DNA from: Isoetes taiwanensis
Lineage: Eukaryota; Streptophyta; Lycopodiopsida; Isoetales; Isoetaceae
Assembly: GCA_021234155.1 (NCBI GenBank)
Contig: JAJEKV010000083.1
Location: forward strand, 898,332 to 962,331
Length of the DNA: 64,000 nucleotides
Direction of reading: 5' to 3'
Part shown: in pieces, positions 12,110-56,197 of the stretch
How the letters are laid out: every line of letters starts with the position of its first letter
How positions within the stretch are numbered: position 1 is the stretch's first letter
Position numbers and translations under genes: made by a program
Notes under the pieces: generated by a model
Database searches by the model: none
Told to the model about the DNA's origin: nothing
What the model saw: only the letters and a program-made list of their open reading frames with translations

Positions 12110-12960
12110 TGAGTCTTCGTGGATGTGGATGCTTTTGGTATAAATTTATACCAGAAGGGTTCCTTTCAAAATTGAAGGGCACTATCGAAGGGTTCCTTTC
12201 AAAGTTGAAGGGCACTACCGAAGGGTGCCCTTCCGGTATAAATTTATACCGGAAGGAAGCACTTCGTAGAAAAGTGCATGTTCTAAAATATCGGAAGGGT
12301 TCTTTTCAAAGTTGAAGTGTGCAGTTGAAGGGCACCCTTCCGGTAAATTTATACCAAGAAATTTATACCAAGAAATTTGGTCGATTATAAATCTCTAAAA
12401 TAAGAGATTTTCTGAATTTAGTATGCAAAGTAGTGTGATAGTCCTAATGGTATGAATTTATACTCATCGGGCCTACACTGTTTAAAACTTTAAATATATA
12501 CAAAGAAGATATGTGAATGGTATAAATTTATACCACTGGAGTGTCTATGATATAAATTTATATCGAGGATAGATGTGAACGATATAACTCACTATTCAAG
12601 TCTCAATGGTACTATAAATTTATATTATCCGCCTGTATAAATGTATGCCGAGGAGAGATGTGAAAATAGTATAAATTTATATCGCTCAGTGCCTATGATA
12701 TAAACTCATACCGAGGAGAGATGTGAAGGGTATAAATTTATAGCACTCAAGTGTCTTTCGTATCAGTTATACCGCAAGGACAGACATTAATAGTATAAAT
12801 TTATACCATTAACCATCATTCATTTAAATTGGATTTATGTCAGAATTTTGGACCATTTTGGCACTGCAACTTTTTCCTGGGTTAGTAAATTTGCATCGAG
12901 AATGTGACTTTTTTTTATAACAGCACCACATGATTGCATTAAAAATTGAAAATATTTTAC
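12110..12960. repeat. Left arm of the outer transposon: array of 16-bp palindromes
   Basis: The perfect palindrome GGTATAAATTTATACC or close variants occurs about twelve times, at roughly 12136, 12234, 12345, 12450, 12518, 12550, 12608, 12668, 12697, 12730, 12760 and 12793, at 30-100 bp spacing. Between 12150 and 12330 it alternates with GAAGGG...CCCTTC words. From about 12790 the arm continues with CATCATTCATTTAAATTGG and TTATGTC, which reappears inverted near 37.87-37.90 kb next to one more palindrome. Subterminal clusters of short palindromes are a known feature of transposase binding regions in large plant DNA transposons, so that role is inferred here. Confidence 0.75.
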
Positions 12961-12988: not shown

Positions 12989-14696
12989 TTACTTCTCAGA
13001 AGTGACGCCTAGAGATATCATAGCTTTCTTCCTCACTTCCGCAGGTATTGTAACCCTAGCAGTCTTGTTTAGGATGACCTTTGGGGTCCATGAAAACAAA
13101 ATAGTATCTAACTCAACCCAATCACCCCCTTCAATAGGGTTTCTCTTCTATTTCTTTGTCCAACAGTCTCGATATCTTTTTTCCTTTGCCGCTACATTTA
13201 ACTGGTGCACTGGACACCACCACTCCATAAGTACTTTGTTCACATTGCGGTCACCCACTTTTTTGCAAACATCTGAGATGGTGTAACCCATCCACACAGG
13301 GTATATCTCTTTGCGCTTTGGTACTATAAGTGCAAATTGATGGCAAAGCAAGTCATCTTTGGGATCATAATTCTCTAGCCCAAGATATTTAGGCCTTCCT
13401 TTCCTAGGACCAACATAATGTTTTTCAACAGCTGGAGGAGCCATCGACTTGCAAATACTACTAACCACATCATTAACTTCCTCAAGTGTTATCAAGTCTC
13501 TCCACCTAGACTTAGGTAGACATCCATCTTTCAGTTCATCAGAGGATGTGTCTACTTGTCCCAATAATCCATGTACCTATGTCCAATAATCTATCAATGC
13601 AAGGTTGGTATCATCGGGGTTATTTTTCCAATACTTGATGTATTCAAAAATGCCGTCCAATGTGCTTTGCAATGAATCCACCTCTGCAAAAGGCTTAAGA
13701 GCTTTTGGTTGACCCCTTGGAATCTTAGGTTTACCATGTTCATCTTCGTGCCATATAGGTACTCCCTCATCTGGCCTCCATTTATCATCTGAAGGTCTCA
13801 TCTTCCATTGCATTATTGGCTTATTTCACATGACCCAGAAAGTGTACTGAAGAGGTCTACATTGACCTTCCATATCAAGAGCATAACCTTCGATCAAATT
13901 CTTCCAATCAGACACCTCTTGTATGATCAACCCTATAGGAGAAGGTGAAATGCATTCACTAAGAACTTCCATTAATCTAGAAAGATTGGTCACAGTTTGA
14001 GATTTCAATCACAAGACTATACTTCCCAAACAATGCATCCACATCCTCATGAGTATGTTCGGACATTAAGAACTCTAAGTTCACTCTTTCAAAGACACCC
14101 ACAAATTGTTAAATAAGATAGGAATGAGAACATATACCTGTTTTTATTCTGTCCAGCACAATTGTCAAGTTGGAGGAGGAACTTTGGTGGTAGATCTTGA
14201 GATTGGGGACGTGAACTTGAGGCTCCAACATATTTAGAAGCACCCCAATTTCCTAAACCTTGCCTTAGTAAACTTCTCAAAATTATTAGGCTTTCTATCC
14301 GACAATGCACTAAGAGTGGTTGGCTACCACCTCCAGGGTTGTGGAGATCACCAGAATAACCACTCTCATAGTTCCTCAAGCACCTCATCACACTTCCAAT
14401 ATGAAAATCAGGACCATCACTCCACAATTGCAAACTAAAATGGCCATAATAAATTGGCACCGAGCTATGCACTATTGCACCTATCGAGAGATTTGCATAG
14501 GATAAGCTCTATTGATTTGCTTGGGTATGTAACTATCTTTGTGGCAAAAAGTCTTTGATTGATCCATCTTGTCATGTATAATACAAACATAGTTATTGGG
14601 TTCCAAACATGATAATGTTCTCCACATCCAATAAGTGGATCTACATGATAGTTGGTCTGTCATGTGATCTTTCATTTGCTCCCTTATCTTAGCCCC
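12989..14696 (-). pseudogene. Gene A, C-terminal part: DUF7869-like transposase-like protein
   Basis: The minus strand encodes, in broken frames, a transposase-like protein. Its start (33106) and N-terminal third lie at 33106-32045, and the gene is split by the 14699-32043 insertion. The fragment begins AKIREQMKDHM at the target duplication. It continues with IIHDKMDQSKT (near 14550), QLDNCAGQNKNRYMFSFL (near 14120), HTHEDVDALFGKYS (near 14045, in another frame) and a tail ending GVTSEK with TAA at 12989. The pair QLDNC.GQNKN and HTHEDVD is, from memory, the hallmark of the family catalogued as DUF7869, thought to have an RNase H-like fold. Frameshifts lie near 14090 and 13570, and an in-frame TAG at 13148 precedes the last 50 codons. 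The stop lies directly beside the palindrome arm, as expected for a transposon's own gene. Confidence 0.75.
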
Positions 14697-14749
14697 GAGG
14701 GGTTCACCTCTATGTAAGGGGCATATGGCATGTGCGTGCATCAGGTCAT

Positions 14750-15940
14750 GAGAAACCCCTATGTATACAGCTCAACCTCCGTAGAAACTCTTATGTATAC
14801 AGTCCTGAATTGTTGAAGCAGAATACCCGATTCCATACTTTTACACCCATTCTAAGCACAACTTGCCCTATCCTTAACCTTATTTTTACGTCCAGTAGTT
14901 ATTCATGCAGGCTATCCTCTACCTTAGATTTACATCCAATCTACAAATGTTGAAAACTTCACAAGTTTTCACAATGTTTTCACTAAATCTACTCCCAACT
15001 TGATTCAAGTTATTATGTGCTTGACCCCAATCATGGTTTAGGGTTTACCTCAGTGAAGATCTCAATGGTTAGGGTTCATCCATGGTGCCATTTTAGTTCA
15101 AAGGTCACTCCAAAAAATAAGAAAAATAAATGAAGAAAGAAATACGCTTGGAATACATATAGAAATATATTTTTTATTTAATTTATTTTAGCAATACATC
15201 ATTATGAAATTGATTATTGATAATTGTTAAATTGATTATTGTTACGGAATTTATTTTCGGGCACGTCTTTTAAGAACGTCATTATGGTGATTTTTGCCAT
15301 GCAGCTGCCGCTTATATCATCCTTTGATCCGAACTCTTCCTATTCCTCTGCCAATACCATCCTCTGATCCGAGCTCCACCTATTCCTCTCCCTATTCTGA
15401 CTTCATCTTTGATTCCTACAATGACTCGGACAAAGACTACCTCTAAAATCTGTCAGATCTGTTGAATCCAAGGAAGAGACCCATGGCTGTAGGGCACGAA
15501 AATGAAAGTTGTTGCGAAATTTTCCTGCTTGGAAGTGGTACACATGCGAGATCAAGGAGCTTATATTACTGAAAGGTGCAACAGTGGGTTGATCGGGTTA
15601 AACTTGCAGAGGAGCGGCTTCTGGAGATGAAAATTATTGCTGAAGGGAACGATCTGTTTGTGCAGCTGAGGATGCCACCTCCTGGAAGTTTTTAGTGCCT
15701 TCTCGGCTGGATGGACATTTTTAGTGCCTCTTGGACGTTTTTAGTAGCTTAGGTTTCCGTTTTCCCTGCTCTCCACAGTAAATACGAAATCTCCATAACT
15801 TCTTTTGTAAAGCTCTTGATCTAAAGTATTGATACAAAGGGTCTGTTTTGTAAATGGGGGTGTAAACTGCCACGCACAGGTAATGGTGCCCAGCGTTGCT
15901 GGGCATATGTTTGGTACATGTAGATGATCCGAAAGAAGAA
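14750..15940. other. Left interior of the inner TIR transposon, no gene supported
   Basis: A local duplication near 15318-15398 shares TCCGA.CTC and CCTATTCCTCT. A hairpin like those of Helitron ends lies at 15888-15904 and is listed separately. Otherwise the sequence is AT-rich with no coding pattern. Confidence 0.4.
15888..15912 (-). mobile_element. Helitron-like terminal hairpin
   Basis: GCCCAGC GTT GCTGGGC at 15888-15904 is a perfect 7-bp stem. On the minus strand it is followed by ACCATTACCTG, matching the plus-strand ACCATTACTAG after the hairpin at 7773-7789, but the CTRR word is changed. It sits directly beside the foldback element and may be a relic end. Confidence 0.35.
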
Positions 15941-15941
15941 A

Positions 15942-16478
15942 AGGCCATTAGGGTTTTTGAGATTAAAAAGGGCCTTCAAAACATGCCAACTAAGCCAAAT
16001 GAAGATAAATGAACTACCAATCAAAATCAGAGGGCGAAGAGGTCCGGTCGGCCAAAAGCTATAATAACTCCTTTGGATCACATTTTCTAGCATAACTATT
16101 GATAGAAAAGTCAAATGAAACTCGTTTAATGCAATGGATAGATCGTTGAGATCTTTCCAACCTTAGGTGCTTTGCACATATTTTAACCATTTAGGATTGT
16201 CAAAACTCCAAAAATATGGTTTTACCATTTTTTACTATCCTGGGGGCTAAAAGATATGAAACCACCCAAGGTTGGAAAGATCTCAATGAGATCTATCTAT
16301 TGCACCAAACAAACTCATTTGGACTTTTCTATCAACACTTATGCTAGAAAAATGTGATCCATGAGTTGAATAACTGATTTTCTTGGATCAGACATGGTCT
16401 GTTTTTCCCCATTGGTAGTTCATATAGCTTAACAATTCTTAGAAGGCCCTTTTATGATCTCAAAAAATCCCTAATGCC
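15942..16478. repeat. Long inverted-repeat foldback
   Basis: The left arm (15942-16175) and right arm (16256-16478) are imperfect reverse complements over about 225-235 bp. Shared words are GGC(C)ATTAGGG, TGAGAT.A.AAAGGGCCTTC, GAACTACCAAT, GGATCACATTT.TCTAGCATAA, TTGATAGAAAAGTC and GAGATCTTTCCAACCTT. About 80 bp separate the arms. A transcript across it would form a long, mostly paired stem. It may be a foldback MITE or an inverted duplication. No coding sequence lies inside. Confidence 0.8.
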
Positions 16479-16493
16479 AGACATAGACTGACT

Positions 16494-16822
16494 GACTTTG
16501 CAATAATGAGATGGGCTTCACATGTAATATATTATAAACTTCGAAGCTTTTCGTTCTAACTAACTTTGTAATCTTGGGATAAGCTTCACTTGAATTATAT
16601 TATAAACTTCGGAACTTCCTCGTTCTAATATGGAAATTTATTGGCAAAGTTGTAGACATGTCGTTATACATATAGTCACTAATTTTGCACTTTGTATATT
16701 GGAGGAAGAGATAACAGTCACTAATTTTGTACTTTTTTTGGTATATTTAGAGGAAGAGGTTTTAGTATGAAGGATTTTTTTTTGGTATATTTATAGAAAG
16801 AGGTTTTAGTATGAAGGATTTT
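16494..16822. repeat. Short tandem duplications
   Basis: Two copies of about 66 bp at 16494-16560 and 16561-16628 share ATTATAAACTTCG and CGTTCTAA. A further pair near 16735-16822 shares TTGGTATATTTA and AGAGGTTTTAGTATGAAGG. Both lie within the inner TIR element. Confidence 0.65.
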
Positions 16823-17658
16823 AAAGTTTGTCTATTTTGTTGCATTTATACACCCACTTTAGGTTTGAAATGTATAAGAATCTTCTTTTACTGGACACCC
16901 AAATGGGAGAATATAAACATTAAGAAATTATATTTTTTGTGAAATTTGACCTTAGGCAGTATTCAAACTTGCACAACATATCAAGGCAAAAGATGGCCAT
17001 GCAACACCATGGCTGCATTTGATTTCAGTAGTCTAATTCTACTGAATATATTAGTCAAAGTTTGTAACTCTATTATGTGAGTGGTCTTTGCTACTATTTG
17101 TATTACACGAAAATGATGTAGTAATCAGTTTACATGAGGATGGTAGTTGCCAGAAAGAACATACTGTGATCACATGATAGGCACTATGCCACGAAACATT
17201 TTCCTTTCAAAATTTTCTAGCCTACTTGTCCACAAAAAGCAGGCAAAAAAAATAAAGCAGCCTTTTTTTGGTGTAAAGCATGTTACGTTTGAGGATTTTT
17301 AGTTATAGCAAGTGAGCTGTTTAAACAGAGTACCCATCATAATGTTTCTCTTGGCTCTTGGCTCTAGTATTATCAATACACTGGAAATTGTAACATCATT
17401 AGAAAATATTCGAATGGGTTAACAAAAGCAAGGATAGCCTTTTCTTTGATCTTGGCCTCAAGCCTTTTGCCCTAGGCAATCGTGCTAGGGAGGACAATCA
17501 ACTTGAATAACCAGAATTCTTCATAATGGTGAAACAAACATATATATCAATCTTAGGCAGGAAGTCTGCAAGAGAAAAATAAAAGAGAAGATGAGAATTC
17601 ATTTTCGATGCTTGCAACATCAATGAGGTTGAGAAAACCACATAACTTCAACTGCTAC

Positions 17659-17737
17659 CTTCATTAGTGGTCACTGAGCAAGAAAACACAAGCCCCTAGA
17701 GCTTGCTTAGCGAGGGAACAAAAACATGAGGCATGTT
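17659..17737 (-). pseudogene. SNU13: SNU13/NHP2L1 pseudo-exon 4
   Basis: After an acceptor TTGCAG at 17738-17743 (minus strand) the codons read NMPHVFVPS, then with a one-base shift AKQALG, then a C, and after another shift CSVTTNE ending at a donor AAG/GTAGC. This follows the order NVPYVFVPSKQALGRACGV...CSVTSNE of the L7Ae-type protein SNU13 (human NHP2L1, 15.5K), which binds kink-turns in U4 snRNA and box C/D snoRNAs. About five codons are missing and the frame is broken. It is the downstream neighbour of the pseudo-exons at 24793-25118; the LINE now separates them within the intron. Intron signals are retained, so it derives from genomic DNA rather than a processed copy. Confidence 0.75.
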
Positions 17738-17869
17738 CTGCAAGCATTTAACATATTCTAGGATTACGTGAGGCAAGAGAAGAATCATAACGAACAAATA
17801 GGAGAGTGGATCGGGGATGGCGGAAGTGCGAGCGCGGGAGGGAGAGCAGAAACCCTTCTACCCTAAACC

Positions 17870-20350
17870 ATGAAACTCTTCACGATCCTGGTCCAAGGAG
17901 AGAGATTCTCTTGTGGATGGCTTGAAGGTGAGAGTGCATGGCTATGGGAGAGCCTGGTGTATAACAGATTCTTCCCTGAAGAATCGTTTACACCTATTTC
18001 TTCAATGGTTCCTCAATGGGAGGTTACGCTTCTTGAATCTTGGTTGGGGGAGTTTGTGGGAGATAGGAATGCAAGTGCGGCTGGTATTTTCCATACGTAC
18101 TGCTCGTGGTCAGATAGCAAAATAGTGGTAAAAGTTTATAGCTAGAAGCACAGATTGCTTGCAGATTAGTGAAAAGTTAGGAAATATTAAAAAAATGGAA
18201 AAAAAAAAGGACGGGGTTAGTTGGAAACTTGATGGATCGGGGGCAAAATGCAGGGAATGTCACGGCCATTGGGATGGATGGGGTTGGTATTGGGAAATGT
18301 CGCGAGAATATCTGAAAGGGGCAGATTTGGGGGAAAAAAGGACAACAGTGACGGGAGGAAATAATGGCAAAAGGGATGACGGGATTGCAGAATTATTGGA
18401 TACCATTCGTACCCTAAGTGTGAAGGGCCATAGCCAAATCCGAGAGATAGTGGATCACCTTGTAGCGATCGAGAAAGGTGAAAAGGTGAAGGAATTTGTA
18501 GCTTTTGGAGATTTCCTTACCTCTACTGCAGATATGGTGAACACCAGGCGATCTTCAGGAGTGGGGACCTTGCAAAAGGAAGGAGGCAAATGGATCAAAT
18601 CTTTTGGACTATGCACGAATCGGGTGGGGAAAGAAGTGGGAAAGGGGACTACTGAGATAAAGAACCGGTGTTTGTGGGTAAGCCTCTTTCGAAATGCAAA
18701 TTTGAGAGAAAATAAACTTAAATTTTTGAAATCTGAGGCCTTATTGGTTGCATTAAATCACGAGGGGTAAGACTTCAATTTTTTTAAAAGGGGAACGGAG
18801 AGATTGGAACGGGGTCGTTATCAGCCGATTCTCTTGGATAGACTTTCCTTTTTTATGGTAGAATGTGGTAACATCAAAGCGGCCAATATCCTTCTCAAAA
18901 TAGGGGTACTATTTCCAAAGCCAATACTCAAGTTTTCTTCCGAAATGGTTTTCATCCTTTGATTCCCAAAACTTCTCTGAACTATTCCACCCGGCTTGGA
19001 CATATTTACAAGGATTAAATCCCCTCAGATTGGAATGAGCGCCTACTCTCACTCTGTTTCAGAATCTGAGAATATCATAAGGCGGGAAATCTCCCAAGAC
19101 AAAAGCCCCAAAAGTATGGGCACAAATTGACATCCCAGAAGCCAATCCACTGAAGAAATTAAATTTGTGGATTATTTTGGTAATCCCAAATCCTTGAAGC
19201 TGGTATGGCAGGGCCTGCCTCAGCCATGCTCGGCTTGTGGCATCAGACTTCATGGGGGAAAAATATGTAAAGGGGGAAGGGAGATTAAGATTGTGCTCAA
19301 GGAGGCAAACCCAGGGAAGCAGAAGGAAGAGGGCTGGATTACGCCAAATAAGGGAAGGATAGAAAGACAAAGGCAGAACAGGAATGGCAGTGAGAAAAGA
19401 AAAAAAAGGAAACAAAGAATCAGAGAGGAGAAAGAGAAAGAAAAGGCCAAGGCAGAATATGGAAAGAGTGTGGAAAGGAGGACAAGGAGTGAATGGAAAA
19501 AGAAAGTTCAATTCATGGAGGAATCTTCGAAAGTTAAGGTCCTCAATAATCCCGAATCTAAAGGGAAAAGTATTATGGAGAACAATCCCACTGAAAAAAT
19601 CAGACCCAGTTCTCTGACAATCAGGGAACCCCAATTTGTCGGGAATGTTTACTCCTCTTCTGAGGAATCAACTGGATATAAAGAAAAAGGGGGGCCAAGC
19701 TCACCCAAGTCTACTGCTGATTCCCTCTACCCGTTGTGGAGCTTTTCCCCAAAGAACCAGGGATCATTGAGAAGATACCAGTAGAACAAGTGCCTTCCAC
19801 AGACATCTCCAAACACCACTCTGATCATGATGGAGCCTTACCTGAAGGTACAGATACAGATATAGATCAAAGCATATCACAGGGACATGCAAATGATCAA
19901 GTTGAGCATGACAATGTTCTGAGCCAAAAGGTTACAATTCCAGAAGGCCAAGGAATTGGTGCTGAACACAATAGTAGACCTCTAAGTCCAGCTGGCCAAG
20001 AATTGGGAACTCACCCCCAAATGCTTGTAACTCCAGTAGGCCAGGGAACTATTAGTGAACAAACCAATAGACTTGTAAGCCCTGCTGGACAAGAATTGGT
20101 AATGGACACCCCAATGGCGGAAAAAGATATCTTCAAAACACCAGCTGCACAGTTAAGAGAATTGAAGGACAATTCATCCATACTGCATGGAAAGTTTTGG
20201 GAGGGTGAAGAGGATAGTGAAGATGAAACTGGGAGAAATTCAAATGAACTAATCTTTGCCACCCCACTTCCACAGACGAAAAAAAGACAGAAGAAGGTCT
20301 ATACCCCCAGGGAGAATGGGCCTGTAACCAGAAGTTCCAAAGTCCAATGA
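17870..20350 (+). pseudogene. LINE ORF1 (gag-like, CCHC zinc knuckle), frameshifted
   Basis: ORF1 is spread over at least two frames. An N-terminal frame from ATG 17870 holds GWLEGESAWLWESLVYNR. The middle frame at 19167-19784 contains VWQGLPQPCSACGIRLHGGK followed by IC, which gives an exact C-x2-C-x4-H-x4-C zinc knuckle, followed by a lysine/glutamate-rich stretch. The C-terminal frame (19736-20350) is polar with repeated GQE/GQG motifs and ends VTRSSKVQ. In plant L1 elements this protein binds the element RNA and forms the ribonucleoprotein particle. The stop TGA at 20348-20350 overlaps the ATG of ORF2. Frame changes and at least one stop in the region 18770-19170 show it is inactive. Confidence 0.75.
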
Positions 20351-23300
20351 AGATTGTGTCTTGGAATCTAAGAGGGATTAAGGGCCCCTAAAGAGGAAAA
20401 GGGCTCGATTGCCTTGAAGGAACTAAAGGCGCATAATCTTCTTTGCAAGAGCATAGATTACACGTCTTTGAGGCATCAAATCTAGGCGGGATGGATTTTC
20501 CCCAATGGAGACTCAATATGGGCCCCTTGGCCGAGATGGCACTAAAGGGGCATATGTATTGCTGGAATGGATATAAAAAAAAATTCCTTTTCCTTGCACT
20601 CTTGAGGTAGATGGCGGTGGTGTTCTTGGAGGTAGAAACGGAAAGTGTAGGCATTATCAATGTTTATGCTTCCACTTCCCTGAGAGAGGGAGATACAATG
20701 GAAAAATATGACCTAGATTACCACTGCAGGGGGACGAATACAAATAACCGGATTCTCGGTGGAGATTTTAATAATACCCCTCATGGGAGCGTAAAGGGGA
20801 AAAAACTTAACATGTCAAAAGGAGAGATCCCAATGGGACAAGTTAGCCCATAACTTTGTCCCTCTTAGATCTAATGCATACTCATGGTGTAATAAAAGAC
20901 AAGGGAATGATAGGGTATATTGTCTCCTTGACGGGTTTTACACCAATATATCTACCTTAGAAGGATGGGATAGCTTGATTATTGAGAATGACCTGCGGAA
21001 CTCAATATCGATCACTATCCACAAGTTACGGACACGTATCCCCGCCTCGGAATAGACATCTTTGATACATCATTCAAGTTTAATGTTAGTCTGCTGAGTA
21101 ACAAGACCTTTTGTGAAGACTTTGCAAGGTTTTATGGTACTCTGGAAAGAGTTAATGCTAGTGGCTCAATGAAAGAGTTCATTAGGAAATGTAAGCAGAT
21201 CAAAAACTGGATTAAGCAATGGGGTAGGGAGTGGAACAAAAGGAAGAAACAGGAAAAGATGGGAGTGTACTTGGAAATGAGGGATATCAGACAGAGGCTT
21301 TTTCTGGACAAAAGTAATGTGTTGCTGCACCAGAGAGAAGAACTCCTGGAAAGAAAAGTAAAGCTAATTGAAGAGCATGAAGCTAAAAGCTTGGCAGTCA
21401 AGAGCAGAAGTCTGTATGTTAACCAAATGGATGACTGCAGCTCTAAATTCTTCTATAGAGCAGCCAAAAGCAGGATCATGAACAATGGAATAGTCTCATT
21501 GCATGATGAGAATCAGGGTGAACTTTCCAAACAAGAGGACATTCAGAAATTATTCTTCAATAAATACAAGGAACTCTTTGCAGCCACCTGTACAGATAAT
21601 GGAAAAATGATGGAGTTCTTTGATTACCTTGGCCCTAAGGATACACATATTGAAGATCAGCAGCTTCTAGCCACTCCAATGGAGACAGAGATTCTTGCAA
21701 CTATCAGAAGTATGGCCCATGGGAAAAGCCCGGGTCCCCGATGATGGGTCACCACCGGAATTTTATGAACACTTTTGGAGCATTATGGATAAAGACATTA
21801 CTACATTTATCCAAGGAGCCTGGCAGGCAAAAAATTTACACCCAGCAATAAATGCAGGTTTAATTGCACTAGTGCCAAAAGTGGACAAGCCCACTACATT
21901 CTCAGACTTGAGGCCAATATGACTCACAAATGTGTCATACAAGATATTGGCCAAAATTTTTGCAAATAGAATCAAGAAAATCTGCGAGGAAAAATTAATC
22001 CAGGTTCGGGCTTTCTCCCAGGGCTTTCATTGGGGCTTATGAGGGTCTACACTGGAATGGGGTTACCAATCAAGGCTGTGTACTGCTCAAACTGGACTTT
22101 AGGAGAGCCTATGATACCATCAATTGGAACTTTCTATACAGAGCCATGGACCAGCTAGGGTTCTCAGAGCAAGTGATTGCAAAAATTGCTGGATTTAATG
22201 TTACAGGGTGCTCTGCAGTCATGGTTAATGGTTCCCCATCTTCCTTCTTTGAATGCAAAAGAGGGGTTAGACAGGGGTGTCCTCTAGCTCCTTACCTGTT
22301 CCTTATTGTGGCTGAAATGGTAACAAGGATCATCATGAAGCTGCAACAAACAGACAAAATCTGTTGTCTCAAGCTTCCTAGTTCAACTGACACCTTGTCA
22401 GTTATGCAATATGCTGATGACACGTTTGTGTTCTTGAGAAAGCAGGGAGACAGTATCAAGAACTTTCTGGAGGCAATGGATCTCTTTGGGAAGGCATCTG
22501 GGGTGGTTTTGAACAAAGATAAGTGTGCAATCATTTTAGACAGCTCAGATGACAGTATTCATGGAATCAAAGTATGTGGCCTCCATACTGCTACAAAATT
22601 ATTGGGTCTGCCTCTTGCCCTTAACATGAGCATGCATGGCTTATGGGAACCAATTGTCATCAAAATTAAAAAGAAACTCCAAATGTACCCCAAGTCTCTA
22701 TCTTTGGCTGGAAGAGTGCAAATAATTAATGGAGTTATAGCCAGCTCTCATGTTTATTTTTCTTCAGCTATAATTGCAGACAAGAAAACATACTAGGAGT
22801 TAGAGATCATCATGAAAGAATTTATATGGCAGGGGGCACACATGGTGGGGTGGAAACATCTCACCCTCCCTAGGAAAAAAGGAGGACTAGGATGTAAAGA
22901 TCTGTTTTTACAGGCCCAGGTTTTGGCAGCAAAACTGGTGTGGAGATCCTTGGTTTTAGCATCAAGGTCTCCTGCCCTTCTACTCACCAAATTCTGGATT
23001 CAAAAATCTTCTTTGGTAGGGAGTCCATCTACCCCTCATCACCTTCCAGATTCAGCATTCTACCAACTTAATCCTGCTCCAGGTACATCTACCATTATGA
23101 GAAGAATTATCCAAGCCTGGAATAAGGTTTCTGTTTGTTTTAAGGCCCATCCAATTGAAAAGGTTTCTGGGGACTTTAATTTCTTTTGGCATCAGGGCTT
23201 AGTTGATGAGGAGGATGGATGTCTAGCTTTAAAGCACCCAAAGAAATATAAAGAGTGGAAACTCAGTGGATTAGATACTGTTGGAAGTATGTCTAATGGT

Positions 23301-24092
23301 ACAGAATGGAAGACATGGCAAGAAATATCCAGTGTGGTACAGAACTCCACCTCGAACAGGAATATTCACAGGATCCTCACTAGACATCAAATGGGAAATA
23401 GAACTCTAGTTAGAGATCAGAACTGGGCTGTACAAGGTAAAGGGTACAGTGTGGCCAGAATATACACCCTGCTGCTATGTGATCATGGAACTAAAGTCTC
23501 AAATCAATGGGGTTGTACAGAGAAGGAGGCCATTAGGGTCATAAAGAAAGGGTGGAAATTACAGTGTGCAAAAAAGGTTGTTTTATTCAGATGGTTGGTG
23601 CTCAATAAAAGCCTAAAGTCTAATGCTTACAGGGCAAAGTACAATGCTCAAATCTCTGATAGATGTCCTTTAGGCTGTGGCCAAGCTGAAACATCCTGCC
23701 ATATCTTTATATGCCCATGGCTAACGCCTTTTTGGACATGGATAAGCCACTACACAGGTCCTCCCCCTGCCTCAGAACAAGAGTTATATAACTTTTTAGC
23801 AAACAGTTCTCCCTTTACGGACACCATTAGAACTCTTGTTCTATGGACAATCTGGAAGCATAGAAATGGTGTTGCTATAAATCAGAATAACCCGGATCTA
23901 AACTTCCTTAAGACAACAATTCAATTGGAGTTGGCAGATGCAGCCATGGCTCATAGATTGAACAGGGGATCAAACTATGATAAAAATTGGGATGGTTTAG
24001 GATCCTTTCAAGGGTTCTATGCATTTTTCTCTTCTTATTTTAATAATCTTTGTGCTGATGATGGCGAGTACACGGTCAACAAACATCGTTGA
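20347..24092 (+). pseudogene. LINE ORF2: endonuclease and reverse transcriptase, broken
   Basis: ORF2 starts MKIVSWNLRGIKGP at 20347, the conserved first strand of the APE-like endonuclease, but is interrupted at once by a stop. GGDFNNTPHGS near 20758 is another endonuclease piece. The reverse transcriptase begins near 21700 (GKSPGP, PPEFYEHFW, LIALVPKV, LRPI). It includes RQGCPLAPYLF (near 22270) and the catalytic YADD motif (22410-22421), the last two in one frame. A single in-frame TAG at 22794-22796 separates RT from the rest, which carries a C-terminal zinc-finger region RCPLGCGQAETSCHIFICPW near 23665. The domain order is that of L1. Breaks near 20388, 20850, 21740 and 21920-22140 make it non-functional. 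Confidence 0.85.
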
Positions 24093-24792
24093 AGGAGGTC
24101 ACATGAGGGAGGTACCGGAGGATACCGCGACCAATGACTCATCAAGAGGTTCCTGAAGCCTTGCTCGGGTAAAGACCCAAACCATCATGATCAAAACACT
24201 GGAGAGGATCTTGAAAGACGAGGATATCTGGCAATTTAAGCAGGACCTCAGACCATACTTTGAGGACAAGCTCAAAATTTGTGTTGGTGCGAGAGAATCC
24301 TGGATACTCTATATTTTGGACTCGGCTGCGCTTGGGGCTGTTGAACTTGACACTCTGCTCTTCGAGAATACAACCCATGCCTTTGCAGTAATAACTCTTG
24401 ATGGAGTTCGGGATGATTAAGGCCTCGCCAATACTTGGATTTTTTCCAAGATATTATCAAGAAACTTAAACTCTAAATTATGGTTATTTTGGATTTAATC
24501 CTTAAAACAGTGTTTTAATCTAACTGAATTTTCCTCCTTTTGGAGAGACAGGCCTAGTTAAGGCCTTATAACAGAGTTCTACTCTGTGCATTTTGTATTA
24601 CTATGTATTACATGTAATATAACTCCTCTGCCGTTTCTATAAAAAAAAAAAAAAAAATAAAATATAATAATGAACAAATAACACAGATAATTTAACTTAA
24701 CTAATAAACAAACAGAAAACGCTTTAAAGTACTCAATAACTATGTGAAACATAAAAAATTATTACTGGAAACTTGGGATAAAAGACTAATAC

Positions 24793-25118
24793 CTTAATCT
24801 TCGACAAGCAGCGACAAATGCAACAAACTCTCCAATGGCTCAATATATGCTATTACCATGAACTCTGTTTTACCCCTGTTTAATGTCTTCGTGGCTGCAA
24901 AATGCAATGATTAGAACAAAAGGAATGAGAAACAAACTACATTATCTGTTAACAAAATATAGACCTTCATTTGCTCCCTTCAGTTGCTTATAGTTTGCAG
25001 CTTGCGCTAAAAGATTAATACCTTCCGGCAAACAACGGCAAATGTAACAAAATCTCCAATAGCTCAGTATCTGTCATAACCACGAACTTTGCTATACCTC
25101 TGTTTAAAGTCTTTGTGG
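24793..25118 (-). pseudogene. SNU13: SNU13/NHP2L1 pseudo-exons 2 and 3, with exon 3 duplicated
   Basis: Reading the minus strand, exon 3 copy A (25118-25022, after acceptor ATGCAG) encodes ATKTLNRGIAKFVVM then TELLEILLHLPLFAG. A truncated exon 2 follows (25007-24965): QAANYKQLKGANE with a donor. After an intron, exon 3 copy B (24894-24793, acceptor TTGCAG) reads ATKTLNRGKTEFMVIA then EPLESLLHLSLLVED and a stop. These match, from memory, the order ...QAANYKQLKKGANE/ATKTLNRG...EPLEILLHLPLLAED of SNU13, the L7Ae-family protein of U4 snRNP and box C/D snoRNPs. Both exon 3 copies are followed by GTATTA.TCTTTTA, so copy A plus the start of its intron was joined to the middle of exon 2 by a tandem duplication. 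No exon 1 was found. Confidence 0.85.
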
Positions 25119-25202
25119 CTGCATGGGAAGTACAAATGGTTTTTCTGCATGCTGGAAAGATATAACGTGAGGTCCATGTTCTGCCCAACATCATTTCAAA
25201 CA

Positions 25203-28200
25203 TCAGAACTCAAATCTCAATGCATTGCCAGACTTCCTCCTCATGCTAAGTACCCTGCCAAGATACCAAACCTTATGAATTGCAACAGATTTGTTCCTTT
25301 TTCTTGCTGAAGCTTGTCTAGTTTGTGGTGCCACCATGGATTCCACTGATTCTTCGAAGTACACTGCACAATCTGTCCCAATGCCGAGCAGAGTTTGTGC
25401 ATCAACATTACTTTTTTCAATAGAATATACCATAGTCTTCACCCTCATCAACTTGTCCTTTGATAGCCATGGATTCCCATTCAAATGGCTCAATATAGTT
25501 GACTTAAAGATTTTCTTCCCTTCCATCACAACATGCCAAGACACATGAAATGGCTTCCTCCTTTTACATTCACCTAACATTTCGTCAAACACATGACGTA
25601 ATTCAGACCTGACCACATCATCCTCATTGACTACCTCGTTCCCTGAATCTTCACTTTGAATCTCCATATTCTCTTCCATGACATCGGTCTCATCTCCCAA
25701 TGTGCTAGAGCTCAGGTCTACCGACAGACTACTCTAAAACCAATCCTCGAATTTCCATGGCTCACTAAACCAACCATCACTGTCGGTACTTGTAATGCCG
25801 ACGCTTGTACACAATGCTTGTGCAGCAGCAAGCCCTTCTTTTAAGGCCTCAATAATCTTGTCATCCGTATCCACGCTACTATAATCTGCAAGGTTACAGG
25901 TCAGCACATTCCCATTGGTATCTACCTTCTTTTCTAACTCTTGCCAAATGTGCTCTTGCTTAGCATGTGCTACAGGAAATAAGAGGGCAGTGGCAGCCTA
26001 AAATTGAGAAATGTGATTCAAAGCAGAGGCACTCTCCAATAAGTCTGCCCCATCATACGATCTTTCGTTACGCACCATGCCACCCACTTTGAGAAGAAGT
26101 TCTCGCATACATCCGATCACGTGCACTGTAAGGGCAACTCTAAATGCCCAAATTCATCTCTAAAATACTTTATTAGCAGCACAACAAAATGGCATGACAA
26201 TTGCACGTCTATAAAGCTTTCCCGACTAATGAAGTTCTTACTCAAAGAATGCATGCTATGGTTCTTCAATCATAGCCTCCAAAGCCTGTTATGCACGAAG
26301 AATATGGAACCATTGCCAAACTCCTAAAGTTTTAAAGATCAAAGCAAATTGAAAGTAGCAAACAGGATTCCTACTCACCTAAAGAAGAAGGATACCATTG
26401 CAATAGCTTTAACCCGAGCCCTCAAGTCCATAGTAGGTAAGAGAAAGATGTCAATATATGATGCCACGACTTCCAAATAAACTTTTGTGCCCAAATTCCA
26501 CATCGGTGGGCCTGCAGAACCATTCCTGAGTTCGTCCAAGCATTGCTGAAACTTTCTAGAGGCAAGACGTTGCGCAACCCTCCAGTTTTGCCTATCCTGG
26601 TGCTTCACATCTCCAAGTTCCAGCCTATGCTTTCCTTGGCATAACTCAAAGACATGGCATATGTCATTGAGTGTCACTAACTCGTTCCCTAAGTACAGTC
26701 TTCTAGAGGCACTATCCATGGGATTAACAAGCTTCTTGCCGTTGTGCACGAAATCTTGGTCATGCATCCCATAAACATCCTTATTCCTCGAGGCACTTAA
26801 TGGCCAACCGACCCATGATACCTCAAATGTACTTTCTTGTGCCTCCTTGGATGTATAATCTTCAAACATGCACGTTCTCCTCCTCGAGTCTCCGTCCGAC
26901 CTGTGGCCGATTAGAGGGCCAACAACCATTCTCAAGTGCACATTCCACAACCCTTGGATTTGCTGTCACTGACGTCTAACCTCTAGGTGATCAAATCTGT
27001 TACATGTAAGAATAATAGCAAGGACAAGTTTAGGCAGCTTCCTATGCAACGGATTCACGATAAGAACTCTTGCATAGTGAGAAATGACATTCTCCTCGAA
27101 GACATTCATAATGATGTTGTAGCCCTCTTCCTTGGAGCCAACTAACACCTCAAATGTGCCATTGCAAGCATGCCCTTCTTTCTTTCCACAAAAAGCCAAG
27201 CAAGCAGTCATCTCTAAATCCAAATCCACATCCTCGGCTACAATTGTTGGAACTCCCCGGATCCAAGTCTTTGGCGTTGCATGTGTCAGTGGAGACCTAA
27301 GCAAGATGCTTGAATGTTTCTTCCCCTAAGACTAACCTTGTAAAATAAGCTTTCTCGTGTGGAGCGCATAGTGGTGGACATACTTGGACCCTGCAAAATT
27401 AAGAGAAAGAAAATTTTGCATTCTTCTCCCCTCCCCATATCTTAATTGTTTCAAACAACGCCTTCGTGGTTTCCCTATATCTTCTTTTATGGCCAGGTCT
27501 GATTATGTTTTGAGCTATGTCCCTCGGAAAATCTCAAAGAGCTAGTTTTTCCACTAAATTTCCCTTGCCAATGTGCCTCCACTATGTCCCGGAAGAATCA
27601 GTTCCACATCCTTCCCTTGCGTTGACTCCTCCGGACTCCCTCTTAGCAACCTTTCTTTCATGGACAATGCAGTAACTCTTATTTTGGAAAACATTAATTC
27701 CTTATGTAACTTTCTTATCTCATAAACTGCAGACCTGGCCATTTTCTTTATCTCAATTGTATTCAGATAATCTGATCTAATACATAACTTTGTAGTTCTA
27801 AATCCCCTCGCTACCTTGTCATTGTCTGTCTATGCATTCTCATGTAAAGATCCCTCTCCTTCGGAATAGCAGTACGATAATTCACAAAGGGTTCATCAAT
27901 AAGGCTGATCCTCTTGCATTTCTTATGCCTAAACGAGCTACTAATCTGTACTAAACCATGCCCAACTACAAATGTATGCTGCAATGTAGGTTCACAATAC
28001 CAATGTGTCCCAATTTTCAGCTCATGCAACAAGGATCTTAAATCCTTCACTTTATCTCCATACTTATATTTGTTATACTTATATTTGTTCTGCCAAAAGC
28101 CCCAGCATAATAGAGCCAAGGACGTTTCTGTTATGGAAATACGACAATGAAACCTAAATACCCTACAAACTTAAAATACAAACCACTTATAAAGCCAATA

Positions 28201-31200
28201 AGAGTACTCACGTGAACTGTTACTTGATGAAGCTTGGCTGCTCGAGCTTGGAGGGCATGGAGGGTTTGCTGCTCATGTAAAAATTAGCCCAAATCAGCAA
28301 AGATTATTCAACATTATTGCAGCTAAAATGTGAACACTACTTCTAGCAAATAAAATAGAGGTTACCTCTTGCAAAAAAAGAATGCAAATTCCCTTGATGC
28401 TGAAACGGACCTAGCCCCTTGGCCTAGGCCGTCGCACTAAGTAACTCGGGTATAGACAATCAAATCATCATGGACTTTTATTCATAAATATTTGGTTTAC
28501 AATCAAATCATTTACATCCGGCCCAAGGCCACACATACAAAGGAAAGTTCACATCATCCCCATCTCACAATACACCCATAATATACAAAAACCCCAAGGC
28601 CACCCCGTCACCCATGCTTAATTGGCCCTTTGATCTTCCCCCTCCTCGGAAGTGACCGAGGAGGAGTCGCCAGAGCTACCCTCGGAAGAATCTCCATCCG
28701 TCTCGGGGTCTTGGGCCTCAATCTGGGGTTGCCTTTGCGCATAATTCAACTCCCTGAACAATGATATTAGGATCTCGTAAACTCGCTCCTTAGACATTAA
28801 AGCTGGCTCAGCCTCCGTCTCGTTGAACCCCCAGGTAACAAAAGAGTCTAGGTCCAACACAATCGTGGCTTCAGGACGTGCCATCTTACAACACAACAAA
28901 CACCCGGGGTTAGTCCACAAGGACTAAGTGGGGAGGGACATTGGGGTCTTCACATTCATGCATAATAATAACATTAATATGTGAATTACCTGGTAAGTTG
29001 ATAATCCCCCCGTAAAGGTTAGTACATTCTATGTCACCATTTTCCATGCATACTACATGCCAAGCGTAATCCTCGGGTGGCGACCCCAAGGAGACCACTC
29101 TCTCCATCTGTACGTACAGGGTTCAACTCATCCGTCAGGCCATCTGGCACGGATGCGGAGTTACACGGCCACCCCACCCCTCCGAAGGTGGGCCGTTGCA
29201 TGCAAATGCACAACATTCTTTGATTCAAGTGCACCATAAACATAATATCGTCTCAGATACATAATGCAATTCCGTAAGGTGCTCATACCCTATTCATACT
29301 TATAGAGCAATCTTTAATACACGCATAAACATCCCACATTATACACTAGCCAGGCAGATACTTTTCCCTACTACGGGACGGCAACAACATTCAATGGAAT
29401 CTTGGTCTCATAAGGTAGGTTTGCCTAGCGGTTGGTAGAAGGTAACTACAATTGACAAGAACACCTAAGGGTTTTAAGGTTTAACTTTATAACAACTTAA
29501 GGTTTAAGTTTTAACTTTAAAATAAGGTTTTTAAAGGTCTGGGGATACCGGATCCTGGTATCCCCCTGCAACAGAAATCAGAAAGTGACTATAACAAGTT
29601 CGTGGGCGCCCAACAGCGGCCCCTTTTTGGCTGGCCGACCGGATCTACAAGCTCGCCCCAGGCAAAAGTTCATGTCCAAACACATTCAGCGTGCAAAATA
29701 CTAGCTTTAGAGTAGGAACCAGAGGAGAAGACGGATTTACAATCTTGATCACGGCAGTGGAGAGGCAGACAGAAGGATTATTTTTACACAACCGACCGAA
29801 ACAAGCTAAGGTTCATAAGATCGGATGGTCGAATTCAAGCAGGGCCTGCCGGATTTGGGAGCACAGAGCAAATGGGCATGACAGATTTTACTTATGAATT
29901 GGAGTTTGGCTTACAGGCAGGTGACGGCATGCTTCAGAGACTCAGCTCTACATAATCCGTCCCCAATCAGGCCGAAAATCAATACAAAGATCAAATCCCC
30001 ACCTGAATTTAGCTTTGGACTCTTGTTTTCCTTGCTCTACTTCCAATTTGATCAGCCCAACCGATTCTCTTCCTCCTCCTTTTTGCCCATCCGGCCACTC
30101 TTCTATTTCTTATATACCCTTGCCTTAAGAACACTTGGCAAGATCCATCCCAGGATCAGGCCAGATGGTGAGTTTGGCATGCTACATGCATCTGTAAGCG
30201 AGATCCTACCGCTATCTGGCAGCCACGATTCCTTTCTTCCCCTGATTTAGTGTGCTCACACTTTTAGCATTCAATTTATTAAGGTTTTAAGTTACCTTAG
30301 CTAAAGTTTTTATTTAGATTTAAATGGCGCCCCCAACACACCCATGGACGCATACCACTGTGCTCTATACAAATTAATACGGACACAAGCTTGGACACAA
30401 GCTAAGTCCCTGGGTTTGTTACAGATGCGGGTCTGCTTCAGCCGATTTCTTGGGCCTGCCACCTCTTGCTGCTTGGTCATTTGACTCCTTACCCATATTC
30501 ATGGCAGCATGCACGTGTCTCTTTGAAAGAATATGATCTCTCATGTGGCCATTAAGACTTCTAGATTTTGGAAAGAGTTCAAGAAGCCTTTCACACATGG
30601 CACAAATAATACAAATGTCATCATGTTTAGCATATCCACCAATGGTGTTCTCATAAAGCTTGAACACAACATCAAAAACTCTAGTTTCTTCTTGAAACTT
30701 TGCAATGGCAGTAGCTAATGTACTTTCTACTAGAGCTTGATTCTCCTTGCGAATGTCCAGCTCCTCCTCAACATTACAGGGCTGGTTACGCTCATAATTA
30801 TCGGCATGACTCTTGGACTTCAGGTGGTTGCATTCAAAGTTACACAAGATATCATCTCCACTTTTACCATATCGTTTCTCACATTCAAGACACCAAATAG
30901 CAAATACTGGTTTACCATGGGCATCATAAGAACACAATTCAGACCTGTCCTTTCGATTCTTTCGCTGCAGCTTTAAACTCAACTTCCTCACAACAACTTG
31001 CCATTTGGCAACATCAAACTTTGTTGCTAACTTGGATAGCAACCTATTCTTTGAAAAATGCAGATCTGATACATCATCTCAAAAGGCGGTATCTTCAACG
31101 AGAACAAGCTCATCATCATTTACCTCTTCATTGGTCTGCTCCTCAGCTATGACAGTTTGGTCTCCCATCTCAAATTGGAGATTTTGAGATGAAATGCTCT

Positions 31201-31474
31201 CAACAACAGTCCTCTGCCTTTTTTGTGCAGGCTCTCCAACCACCTTGATTGTAACCTCGTCGGTAGAAACCTTAAACCTTACCTCCTGCCTTGACGTGAA
31301 GGCCACTTCCCTATCTCCAAGAAATATAAAATCTTTCTCATCCTCCAGTAGCCCGTCCCGTCTTATTTCATTGCGGACATCCACGTAAGTGCATTCATGA
31401 GACATCATCACGAGGCCAAGGTCAGCCACGATTCCACAACCTTCATTCACCTTAACCACGAGTGTCCTTTCCAT
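25203..31474 (-). pseudogene. Multi-exon transposase-like gene of an unnamed family, decayed
   Basis: A 5' UTR intron acceptor (TTGGCAG, 31485) precedes ATG 31474. Exon 1 encodes MERTLVVKVNEGCGIV, a beta-grasp-like start, then two zinc-finger-like modules (near 30900 and 30580: CIICAMCERL, SLNGHMRDH), and runs through the solo LTR to a donor at 28366. Exons 2 (28268-28212), 3 (28127-27815) and 4 (from 27734) keep frame across GT-AG introns. Later exons (27390-27337, 27296-26379, 26323-25203) hold NPMDSASRRLYLGNE, DRQNWRVAQRL, SDVCENFFSK, GGMVRNERSYDGADLL and FKSTILSHLNGNPWLSKDK. In-frame stops at 31079 (TGA), 26966 (TGA) and near 26000 and 25740, and a frameshift near 26090, kill it. From memory, similar uncharacterised proteins exist in cnidarians and other animals; that needs a search. 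CEnFFS...GG resembles the end of RNase H-like transposase cores. Confidence 0.65.
28401..30423 (-). mobile_element. Solo LTR, 2.02 kb, with GATGC target duplication
   Basis: The insertion begins TGAAAC at 28401 and ends GTTACA at 30423, giving TG...CA ends that are short inverted repeats. GATGC is present on both sides (28396-28400 and 30424-30428). Removing it restores the reading frame of the host exon across the junction (ADPH then QGN). On the minus strand GGGTATATAAG at 30119-30109 looks like a promoter TATA box and AATAAA at 28482-28477 lies 76 bp before the end, as expected for an LTR in that orientation. A frame at 28884-28618 (MARPEATIVLDLDS...) with an acidic tail lies inside. No second LTR, primer site or pol sequence was seen, so this is a solo LTR of a long-LTR family, probably Gypsy-type. 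Confidence 0.85.
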
Positions 31475-32044
31475 TTTCTTCAGCCTGCCAAGAACAAAGA
31501 AACAACAAATAATATTAGAGAGATGCTTGTGAATGTATAGACCGAGATGCATGCAGAAAACTGATCTTAAACTAACCTTACCGAGATGCAAACCCTCTAA
31601 AAACCACATTTCTACCACGGATCTCAGAGAATGGAGGCCGAAATGGAGGAAGGGGAAGCTTGGCCTACACAAAAAGAGCTACTGACTTCAAAATCAAATG
31701 CTCAACAATGCTTTATGATGCTCATCTAACTACTTCCTAATCCATTCATGACCAAACTCTGTGGTAGATTTTTATGGGGCAGGGACGAAAAAACTTCAAA
31801 ACATTACCTCCGAAACACCAAATCCATTGACGTATTTCTGGCAGCAAGCTTCGGATTCAAAGCCCTCAAAACGTAATCTCACGCCTTATCTAGTCGAAGA
31901 AAACCATCCCTGAACCGTGGAAATCCATACACTCGAGGCGCCAAAACGTAGGAGCGACCGCATGTATACGTACATTTTTTTTTCAAAAAAAACCTCTTCT
32001 CCGTCCATGCACATGTATTCTACGGAATGCAAGTGTGAACCCCC

Positions 32045-33106
32045 CTTGATCTTAGCCCTTTGGCTTGGTTGTTTGGTCTAATCCAGACTCTCTTTCAACT
32101 TAGCACACAAGTTGCACTTTGCAAAGTTGTGCGAAGTGTCTATAGTGACATGCTTGAAGTGCTTGCTCCATAGTCTACTGAAGCTGGGTTGAGATATTGC
32201 AGGTATCATTAGTTCTCGAAGCAAAGCATTCACTTCCTCCAATATGCTCTTCTAGATACAATGGGATGGCAATCTCTTCTCAACAGCTATTTTTTCCTGT
32301 TGATCTTTCCTACTTTTATGTGGCATATTCTCAGCATTGAATTCAACATATTTATCAAAAACCTCCCTAGCAGCCAGGATCCTAGAAGTTGGCCTCAACA
32401 TGCCATTATTTTCATGTAATGCAATTTTGTTCCCCTTTGCATGACTTGCTTGCCAATTTTGACAAGATGAAATTGGAATGCCATGAATATTTATCCATGC
32501 AACTTTACATATCCATGCTCATAGTAGTGGGTATCTATTTTTCTTTGGATATTTTTCATCTTGAAGTGCAAGCTCATGAATGGAGTACATGTAAGTCCTC
32601 CTCTCATCACAAGTATACTCTTGGAAGGTGGCTCTTGCTTCCACCAATTCATCAATTTCAAACTTTTGAACACAATTAGTCCAACAACATTCCATTCCCC
32701 TTACTATAGCCATAGCTTCATGTGAACAATCACTACTTGACTTGGACCTCTTGCTAGGATAATGTTTCACCATTGAGTGTTTTTCTGAAAATGTGGTCCT
32801 GGCAGCTATTGGAGGTGCATTAGGAAAATCAGTATCATCCACAACCTCTGGCTTTGGTAAAAGGAATTCTCCTATAAACTCAATGCAGGCTATAGGCCAT
32901 GGCATGATGCATAGAACCTCCAATTGTTTAATACAGGCAGTGCAATCCTAGTGATTTGACCCTTTTTCCTTCTATTTTTCTTCTAAACTTGTTATGGCCA
33001 CACCCACTTTATCCTCTCCTAACCTTTCATCATTGACAACTTGGATAGGATCAGCTAGTATGATATCTGTATTTTCTGTCAATAAAACTTCTGCCCGGCT
33101 GCTCAT
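32045..33106 (-). pseudogene. Gene A, N-terminal part: DUF7869-like transposase-like protein
   Basis: The gene starts at ATG 33106 (MSSRAEVLLTENTDIILA). It passes two in-frame TAG codons near 32980 and 32960, and continues with RGMECCWTNCVQKFE, FQEYTCDERRTYMYSIHELA and then, in other frames, ILAAREVFDKYVEFNAENM, FSRLWSKHFKHV and FAKCNLCAKLKESL. CC...C and C-x2-C groups suggest zinc binding, as in the N-terminal half of DUF7869-type proteins. The last codons, SQRAKI, overlap the first codons of the C-terminal part at 14.69 kb (GAKIREQ), so both pieces are one gene cut by the 14699-32043 insertion. Together the pieces give about 2.7 kb. The start is chosen because it is the only ATG upstream of the continuous codon pattern. 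Gene B starts about 300 bp away on the other strand. Confidence 0.65.
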
Positions 33107-37639: not shown

Positions 37640-37940
37640 AATCTTCATATCAAGTGAATACAATGTAAAAAGTGTTACTCAGTATATTGATGTGGTGTTA
37701 TCTATAAATGCTAATCAAACACCACATTCTTCTCACTAAAACAAGAAAATGTTAAGCCACCCACTACTATAATATAAAAATTTGCAACCTTGCAAAACAG
37801 CATGTCACACACCATGACACTATATTGAAAAAAGGTATGCAAAAAGTGGCATGCTTTTTGGAACGACATAAATCCAATTTAAATGAATGATGGTTCATTC
37901 GGGTTCCTATAGTATAAATTTATACCAAGGAGGGAATGAA
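37640..37940. repeat. Right arm of the outer transposon (inverted, shortened)
   Basis: Read on the minus strand from 37935, the palindrome variant GGTATAAATTTATAC is followed by CATCATTCATTTAAATTGG and ATTTATGTC, the same order as the left arm at 12793-12852. Only one palindrome remains here against about twelve on the left, so the right arm is truncated or the left arm has expanded. It starts directly after the gene B stop. Confidence 0.65.
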
Positions 37941-38689: not shown

Positions 38690-38833
38690 GGCATTTTCGT
38701 AAATCTTTATACTAGAATTACTAAATAGGTCCCTCTTTAGGCCATTTTAGAAATTTCAAAATTTCTAAAAGGAATCTTTCAAACGCACTTCTTAAATAAG
38801 TGTGTTTCAATTCAAACATTGTTCCTCCTCATT
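38690..38833. repeat. Right copy of the outer inverted repeat
   Basis: On the minus strand GTTTGAATTGAAACACACTT followed by TTGAAAGATTCC and, further on, CTAAAATGGCC matches the plus-strand block at 11389-11480. The two are in inverted orientation about 27.4 kb apart. The right copy stands only about 15 bp from the stop of the hAT frame. Confidence 0.5.
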
Positions 38834-49150: not shown

Positions 49151-49170
49151 ATAGGTTTTTGTATATTCGT

Positions 49171-50725: not shown

Positions 50726-50739
50726 GAGATCAAAGCGAT

Positions 50740-56190: not shown

Positions 56191-56197
56191 TTAAGTT

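Follow-up and report, generated by a model that had tools for sequence, protein, structure and literature searches.

What kind of gene lies broken on the minus strand of this stretch of the Isoetes taiwanensis genome, and is it the plant's own or the transposase of a mobile element? The window, i.e., the whole 64,000-nucleotide stretch analyzed, was thought in the original prediction to hold a decayed transposase gene of an undescribed mobile family. Our analysis indicates that positions 14694-32048 hold a copy, now dead, of a DNA transposon that moved by cut-and-paste and carries a P-type transposase gene, a reading to which we assign a probability of about 0.88. It is carried by the element's ends, its target-site duplications (TSDs), the insertion event, the copy number, the catalytic residues and a remote homology to P-element transposases.

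Structure and decay of the gene

The gene runs on the minus strand from a start codon at 31474 to a TGA at 25203, and its coding segments and quoted motifs were found where they had been placed: NPMDSASRRLYLGN, DRQNW and SDVCENFFSK, then GGMVRNERSYDG in another frame, and FKSTILSHLNGNPWLSKDK. Chaining gave a core of 653 residues, with X at most breaks, and residues 250-653 were used as the query. This query retrieved 62 homologous proteins from 5519 candidates (weakest E=3.4e-15; best 58% identity over 72% of the query), so the segments belong to one gene. Its parts are as follows.

30424-31474, minus strand: exon 1, first part, with the start codon, two C2H2/BED-like zinc-finger modules (recognized by eye) and the stop at 31079-31081
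28401-30423, no strand assigned: apparent solo LTR inside exon 1, with TG...CA ends and a 5-bp GATGC duplication
28366-28400, minus strand: rest of exon 1, up to a GT donor; homologous text QQGNLHSFFARG in another genomic copy, L032
26379-28130, minus strand: core exon, upper limit approximate, with frame changes and stops
27227-27238, minus strand: first catalytic Asp motif, AEDV (corresponding to P element D230)
26888-26899, minus strand: second catalytic Asp motif, SDGD, its first Asp corresponding to P element D303
26723-26755, minus strand: D(2)H signature DQDFVHNGKKLVN (P element D339, H342, K345 and N349)
26286-26378, minus strand: 93-bp intron, GTGAGT...ACAG; most aligned homologues run from FFR-like text straight to LW/IW
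25203-26285, minus strand: last exon, interrupted by several in-frame stops and changing frame near 26.09 kb
26087-26116, minus strand: catalytic Glu motif SDVCENFFSK; its Glu corresponds to E531 and the Asp three before it to D528 of the P element

The gene is heavily damaged. In-frame stops include those at 31079-31081, 26966-26968, 26117-26119, 25998-26000 and 25734-25736, and the frame changes near 27.8, 27.55, 27.4 and 26.09 kb. Across the core-exon region L032 has a single open frame of 594 codons, whereas the longest unbroken piece in the window has 196 codons; several apparent exon joins in the window are thus frameshifts. L032 also reads through the site of the 28401-30423 gap, which is therefore an insert and not an intron. 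The "at least seven exons" proposed earlier were consequently too many, and the gene probably has about four. The second Asp and the catalytic Glu survive in the window copy, as does the D(2)H stretch; its frame is broken, and the residue after the first Asp is altered (AEDET in the family, AEDV here, the Glu of this motif having changed).

Two zinc-finger-like modules of the form C-x2-C...H-x5-H can be seen by eye near the N-terminus of the window gene and of long homologues such as P0063, and the layout of the first part of exon 1 recurs in homologues P0063, P0067 and P0070. Pfam searches of ten raw pieces of the window gave only matches below the cut-offs, and no zinc-finger family passed its own. 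The same searches matched no host enzyme family above the cut-offs; such a match would have spoken against a transposase, and a host enzyme was rejected. The N-terminus of exon 1 had also been read as beta-grasp-like. A retroelement gene was considered as well and rejected.

Two further features mark the 3' non-coding part of the element.

15882-25214, no strand assigned: stretch of ~9.3 kb, seen as a BLAST gap against copies c4, c9 and c10
18100-24660, plus strand: nested LINE inside that stretch, limits approximate, recognized by eye from reverse-transcriptase-like frames

The poly-A end of the LINE lies near 24645, and where the window has ~9.3 kb, copy c9 has ~0.9 kb that does not match the window. 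The solo-LTR insert measures 2,023 bp, with GATGC at 28396-28400 and 30424-30428. Going by these apparent inserts, the window copy is old enough to have taken at least two insertions.

Ends and insertion site of the element

The limits of the element rest on other copies and on its empty site, because the pattern of terminal inverted repeats (TIRs) and TSDs was no better than in shuffles and is not used by itself: searched with the window copy alone, it gave 9 candidates, compared to 1-10 in shuffled sequences. The ends 14694 and 32048 were likewise absent from the listings of general inverted-repeat searches.

14694-32048, minus strand: P-like DNA transposon, delimited by homology of the window to genomic copies c1, c3 and c6
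14686-14693, no strand assigned: 8-bp TSD, left copy, ATCTTAGC on the plus strand
32049-32056, no strand assigned: 8-bp TSD, right copy, ATCTTAGC on the plus strand
14694-14707, plus strand: left TIR CCCGAGGGGTTCAC, at the 3' end of the gene, 11/14 identical to the right end
32035-32048, minus strand: right TIR CAAGGGGGGTTCAC, at the 5' end of the gene

The window element spans 17,355 bp, nested inserts included, while three close, complete copies of its subfamily that are free of inserts (c1, c3 and c6) span 6,890-6,999 bp. Homology between these copies and the window sets in no more than 3 bases from one end and breaks off at the other end or a few bases from it. On the gene strand the TSD of the window reads GCTAAGAT. 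Left and right TIRs agree at 14/14 positions in c1, c3 and c6 and at 8/14 in c5. On the gene strand, the start codon at 31474 follows the right end at 32048 by 574 bp, matching the ~0.6 kb between gene and right TIR that had been proposed.

Removal of the element and one TSD restores a reading frame. The rejoined flanks read through in frame at the junction, apart from one earlier stop, and give a 134-residue protein whose junction (residue 68) is spanned by 150/150 scored genomic places, these being the best of 7981 candidates. Among these 150 matches, 126 cover residues 1-134, and the top one is 92% identical. The frame just downstream of the insertion matches DUF7869 (E=2.2e-10). Judged by this homology, the host site of the element is a DUF7869 gene.

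Copies in the Isoetes genome

The family is present in high copy number, with at least 150 matches to the core exon, in the assembly of Isoetes taiwanensis (1,658,258,908 bases in 1,110 sequences). All 150 places scored with the core exon, the best of 709 candidates and the window's own included, match with E below 1e-66. The other places are 57-91% identical, many of them near 80-91% or 57-67% and some in between, and some of the 150 carry stops. The 251-bp 3' end is more uniform: each of the 40 places scored (best of 712, the query's own included) is at least 98% identical over 247-251 bp, which indicates that some copies were mobile recently. Judged from sequence, then, the window copy is dead and its family has recently been mobile.

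Fifteen copies, the window included, were read for TSDs, and both ends were located in seven (window, c1, c3, c5, c6, L030 and L033). An exact 8-bp TSD flanks six of the seven: the window, c1 (GTTGGTTG), c3 (ATGTGACC), c6 (CCTGAAAG), L033 (AATCAATA) and L030 (AGTGAACC). In c5, the ends of which were adjusted by hand, 7/8 bases agree. At least one end was missing or not located within the sequence read in c2, c4, c7, c8, c9, c10, L031 and L032, which were left out of the count.

Codon comparison covered open stretches of L030, L032, L033, c2, c3, c6 and c7; c5 has no long enough frame. Within the close group (10 pairs among L032, c2, c3, c6 and c7) dN/dS is 0.15-0.49. Between subfamilies (11 pairs) the synonymous difference is 0.78-0.89, near saturation, and the non-synonymous difference is 0.17-0.26. 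Values of dN/dS below 1 within a subfamily would also be expected if the gene were a domesticated host gene or an ordinary conserved plant gene. Against that idea stand the 150 matching genomic places, some with stops, and the ends and TSDs at several copies; at the window locus it is refuted by the ends, the TSD and the empty site, and overall we give it next to no credence. Single-copy orthology, which would also have spoken against the original prediction, did not appear either: the homologues are multi-copy, with matches at 150/150 scored places in Isoetes and five Riccia sorocarpa loci among the matches of the core search. The claim that a transposase gene has decayed here and that its family is mobile is thus borne out by inverted ends, 8-bp TSDs, high copy number and a conserved DDE set.

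Another transposase might instead mobilize the element, with the P-like gene as cargo. In L030, however, the only gene-strand frames of at least 110 codons lying wholly within the ends belong to the transposase gene. Moreover, L030 and L033, at 61-68% protein identity to the window's subfamily, share similar ends and 8-bp TSDs with it. We regard the cargo explanation as highly improbable, and take the P-like gene to be the transposase of its own element.

Relationship to P-element transposases

Profile comparison reveals a distant yet clear relationship of the family to P-element transposases. The P transposase reference sequence was checked against 6p5a; its homologues were the best 120 of 156, of which 50 were aligned. 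Compared by hhalign with these 50 P transposases, the family gave probabilities of 96.9% (E 1.6e-10) and 97.1% (E 6.8e-11) over 378-393 columns, at 15% identity. Ten controls made from alignment A1, 2 of them reversed and 8 of them shuffled, reached at most 0.2%. With a single P sequence in place of the P alignment, the comparison with alignment A2 reached a probability of only 24% over 94 columns, and a profile search of solved structures returned no transposase and no P match. The family had been called undescribed; given the kinship to the P element (hhalign ~97%), it is not wholly unplaced.

The conserved residues agree with this placement. In the 24 homologues of A1, mapped through the hhalign alignment to P, D230 is kept in 24/24, D303 in 22/24 (Asn in the other 2) and E531 in 23/24 (1 gap), so that the DDE triad for which a search had been suggested is near-invariant (D269, D388 and E621 in P0002 numbering). 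D339, H342, K345 and N349 are invariant (24/24). The D(2)H is named as part of the P-superfamily signature in the accessible text of PMC8230255. The aligned stretch takes in the region ahead of D230 and the insertion region and reaches as far as E531, and the signature residues stay in register along it.

Pfam detects the kinship only faintly. Four families matched the 24 members at E<=0.01, each in one member, and two of them are P-element models. PF12017 (P-element HTH) was found in P0051 (5.5e-5; 23.9 bits against a cut-off of 23), and PF21787 (P RNase-H N-terminal) in one of the 24 members at 0.0022 and in P0029 at 0.012. The strongest PF21787 match, 7.7e-13 over the AEDE region, is in P0113, an odd repeat-bearing gene model from the sea spider, to which unrelated families match as well. 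PF21788 (P insertion domain) matched P0070 at E=0.13. Searched against the Isoetes genome, PF21787 gave 0 matches, and control genomes likewise gave 0. This near-invisibility to the P-element models of Pfam may explain why the family has remained unnamed.

A hAT-superfamily (Ac/Hermes-like) transposon would show some of the same traits. Like the Isoetes family, hAT elements encode RNase-H-like transposases. hAT transposons also make 8-bp TSDs, and the duplications observed here fit them too. In the accessible text of PMC3985635, the P transposase is itself grouped with hAT-like families in a classification of RNase-H-like proteins. However, no hAT Pfam domain appeared in the 24 homologues (E<=0.01) or in 7 proteins (E<=1), whereas P-element models do appear; the hAT dimerization and RNase-H domains are not among the 4 families matched by any of the 24 members. 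The D(2)H of the P-superfamily signature, as described in the accessible part of PMC8230255, is invariant in 24/24 members. With hAT set apart in this way by Pfam and the D(2)H, we consider a hAT identity very unlikely.

Compared to the Drosophila P element and its superfamily (THAP9, Galileo), the family shares the catalytic D, D and E, the order of core and insertion region, the D(2)H with identical spacing to K and N, a similar distance from second Asp to Glu (233 residues in the Isoetes family, 228 in P), the 8-bp TSD and the short TIRs. It differs in its 15% identity, in its longer protein, in the distance between the first and second Asp (119 residues, compared to 73 in P), and in an element of ~7 kb, compared to 2.9 kb for P in the accessible text of PMC7776569. 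The THAP domain (PF05485) was not found in P0063, P0067 and P0070 (E<=1) or in the 24 members (E<=0.01), and two C2H2-like modules stand in its place. The GTP-contact residues of P, listed as K385, K400, V401, S409, F443, D444, N447 and D528 in the available portion of PMC7776569, are mostly replaced. Counting gaps as not kept and bearing in mind the weak alignment in this region, K385 is kept in 1 of 24 homologues, K400 in 1, V401 in 2, S409 in 15, F443 in 0, D444 in 12, N447 in 0 and D528 in 21. Rust-fungus P elements (Repbase P-1_PSt and P-1_MLP), as far as the accessible description in PMC3164196 goes, resemble the Isoetes family in belonging to the P superfamily outside animals and in their 8-bp TSD; they differ in being fungal, the comparison being by description only.

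The Isoetes family thus has the DDE triad, the D(2)H, the 8-bp TSD with TIRs and the catalytic-core profile homology of the P superfamily, but neither a detected THAP domain nor the full GTP-contact set of canonical P/THAP9. Since no THAP domain was found and most GTP contacts are gone, we describe it as P-like in its working, with a catalytic core shared by descent, and refrain from classing it among the canonical P elements. It might instead form an unnamed superfamily of its own, whose only link to P would be a common ancestor of the catalytic core. Such a separation would suit the 15% identity over 378-393 columns, the failure to find a THAP domain, the mostly lost GTP site, the zinc-finger modules of another type and the proteins of up to 1,530 residues; however, an alignment that keeps the signature in register all the way from ahead of D230 to E531, insertion region included, and the 8-bp TSDs common to both favor the P-type assignment. 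We therefore hold a separate superfamily to be somewhat unlikely, and keep the P-type reading.

Distribution of the family

Sequence matches place homologues in liverworts, in a fern, in a sea spider and in what is probably a cnidarian. A profile of 24 homologues retrieved 92 proteins at E<=0.001 (4392 candidates), and this and the core search jointly listed 124 identifiers, 19 of which are labelled with an organism or a record: Riccia sorocarpa (5), Riccia fluitans (3), Calypogeia fissa (1), Adiantum nelumboides (5), EukProt record GoldUCD (3), which we take to be probably the jellyfish Aurelia, and Nymphon striatum (2, from one gene). The longest family members have 1,423-1,530 residues. Seed plants are absent from the 19 named identifiers of the 124 listed. 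A family common to plants and animals, as had been proposed, is therefore found; for the animals the probable cnidarian agrees with the proposal, while insects were not confirmed, the sea spider being the only arthropod among the named matches.

Scans beyond the eukaryotes were nearly empty. No relative was found in 70 pattern matches in viral contigs. Of 145 pattern matches in prokaryote genomes, 1 proved to be a relative (L001); its 6-kb contig is catalogued under a Planctomycetota bin and is probably eukaryote DNA. In a midpoint-rooted tree of 45 proteins, in which the window row has 30% of its columns filled, 8 rows from named plants or the Isoetes genome lie inside one fully supported group of 23, and three EukProt rows lie in two other supported groups. 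This topology fits a long presence in plants and animals, by vertical descent and by old transfer alike.

Proposed mechanism and significance

The transposase, of ~1,000-1,500 residues, would presumably bind the element ends through its N-terminal zinc fingers. Its core is predicted to adopt the P-type RNase-H-like fold, with Asp, Asp and Glu, split by an insertion region bearing the D(2)H. By analogy with P, the two ends would be paired and both cut by metal-dependent hydrolysis, and the freed ends would be joined to target strands 8 bp apart, giving rise to 8-bp TSDs. Since most GTP-contact residues of P are replaced, we predict that the enzyme handles GTP in another way or does without it.

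A P-type cut-and-paste lineage has apparently not been reported in land plants. In the available portion of PMC9033089, the inverted-repeat superfamilies of land plants are Tc1-mariner, hAT, Sola, MULE, PIF-Harbinger and CACTA; P is not among the six. P elements are reported from animals (PMC7776569) and rust fungi (PMC3164196) in the accessible parts of these sources. Open-licence titles and abstract openings mention no P-type elements in land plants.

We tentatively propose, at slightly less than even odds, that the family is a deep eukaryotic lineage, sister to the classical P elements and not nested inside them, and living in seedless land plants and animals. It would combine P-type DDE catalysis and 8-bp insertion with non-THAP zinc fingers, and would have given up the GTP-dependent positioning of the ends that is considered peculiar to P. 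If this is true, the family would be an independent natural experiment on the need of the P transposase for GTP. In any event, a P-related lineage is abundant in a lycophyte, where it was mobile until recently, and is present in liverworts and a fern as well. Two questions now become testable: whether seed plants have lost P-type elements that the ancestor of plants possessed, and whether transposition of the P type may proceed without GTP.

Setting of the transposon

The P-like transposon lies within a gene matching DUF7869 (PF25273, E=2.2e-10), the two parts of which flank it, and the following other features of the window were recorded around or inside it.

32947-32057 and 14685-13148, minus strand: parts of the DUF7869 gene on either side of the transposon
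9377-10310 and 48423-49015: long-range inverted repeats, matching at 72% across 401 bp and at 92% across 61 bp
12808-12841 with 37865-37898: inverted arms, 97%
11384-11413 with 38794-38823: inverted arms
28401-30423: apparent solo LTR with a 5-bp duplication, GATGC
49155-50741: pyrimidine-rich tract of 1.6 kb
56195-58027, plus strand: leucine-rich-repeat receptor-like frame of 610 codons, recognized by eye

The long-range repeats are separated by ~38 kb. The two additional sets of inverted arms suggest that larger nested elements surround the P-like transposon. An array of recurring TATAAATTTATACC palindromes (12122-12830) adjoins the 12808-12841 arm.

The apparent solo LTR contains a 101-codon frame on the minus strand (28618-28923), for which a Pfam search returned no match. 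The pyrimidine-rich tract is open in more than one frame, and these frames look like an artefact of composition.

Relatives of the transposase and abundance of the interrupted gene

The transposase family has a 26% identical relative at 2226-4514 of L001, a 6-kb contig assigned to a Planctomycetota bin, which is perhaps misbinned eukaryote DNA. In the sea spider Nymphon striatum, one gene model (P0113/P0123) joins repeated AEDE segments of the family to an exonuclease-like C-terminus with Viral_alk_exo and YqaJ matches, and is possibly a gene-model fusion.

When the flanks of the interrupted gene were joined without the transposon, the resulting junction protein was matched by all 150 of the 150 genome places scored (7981 candidates), at 77-94% identity. 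The DUF7869 gene family is very abundant in the I. taiwanensis genome.
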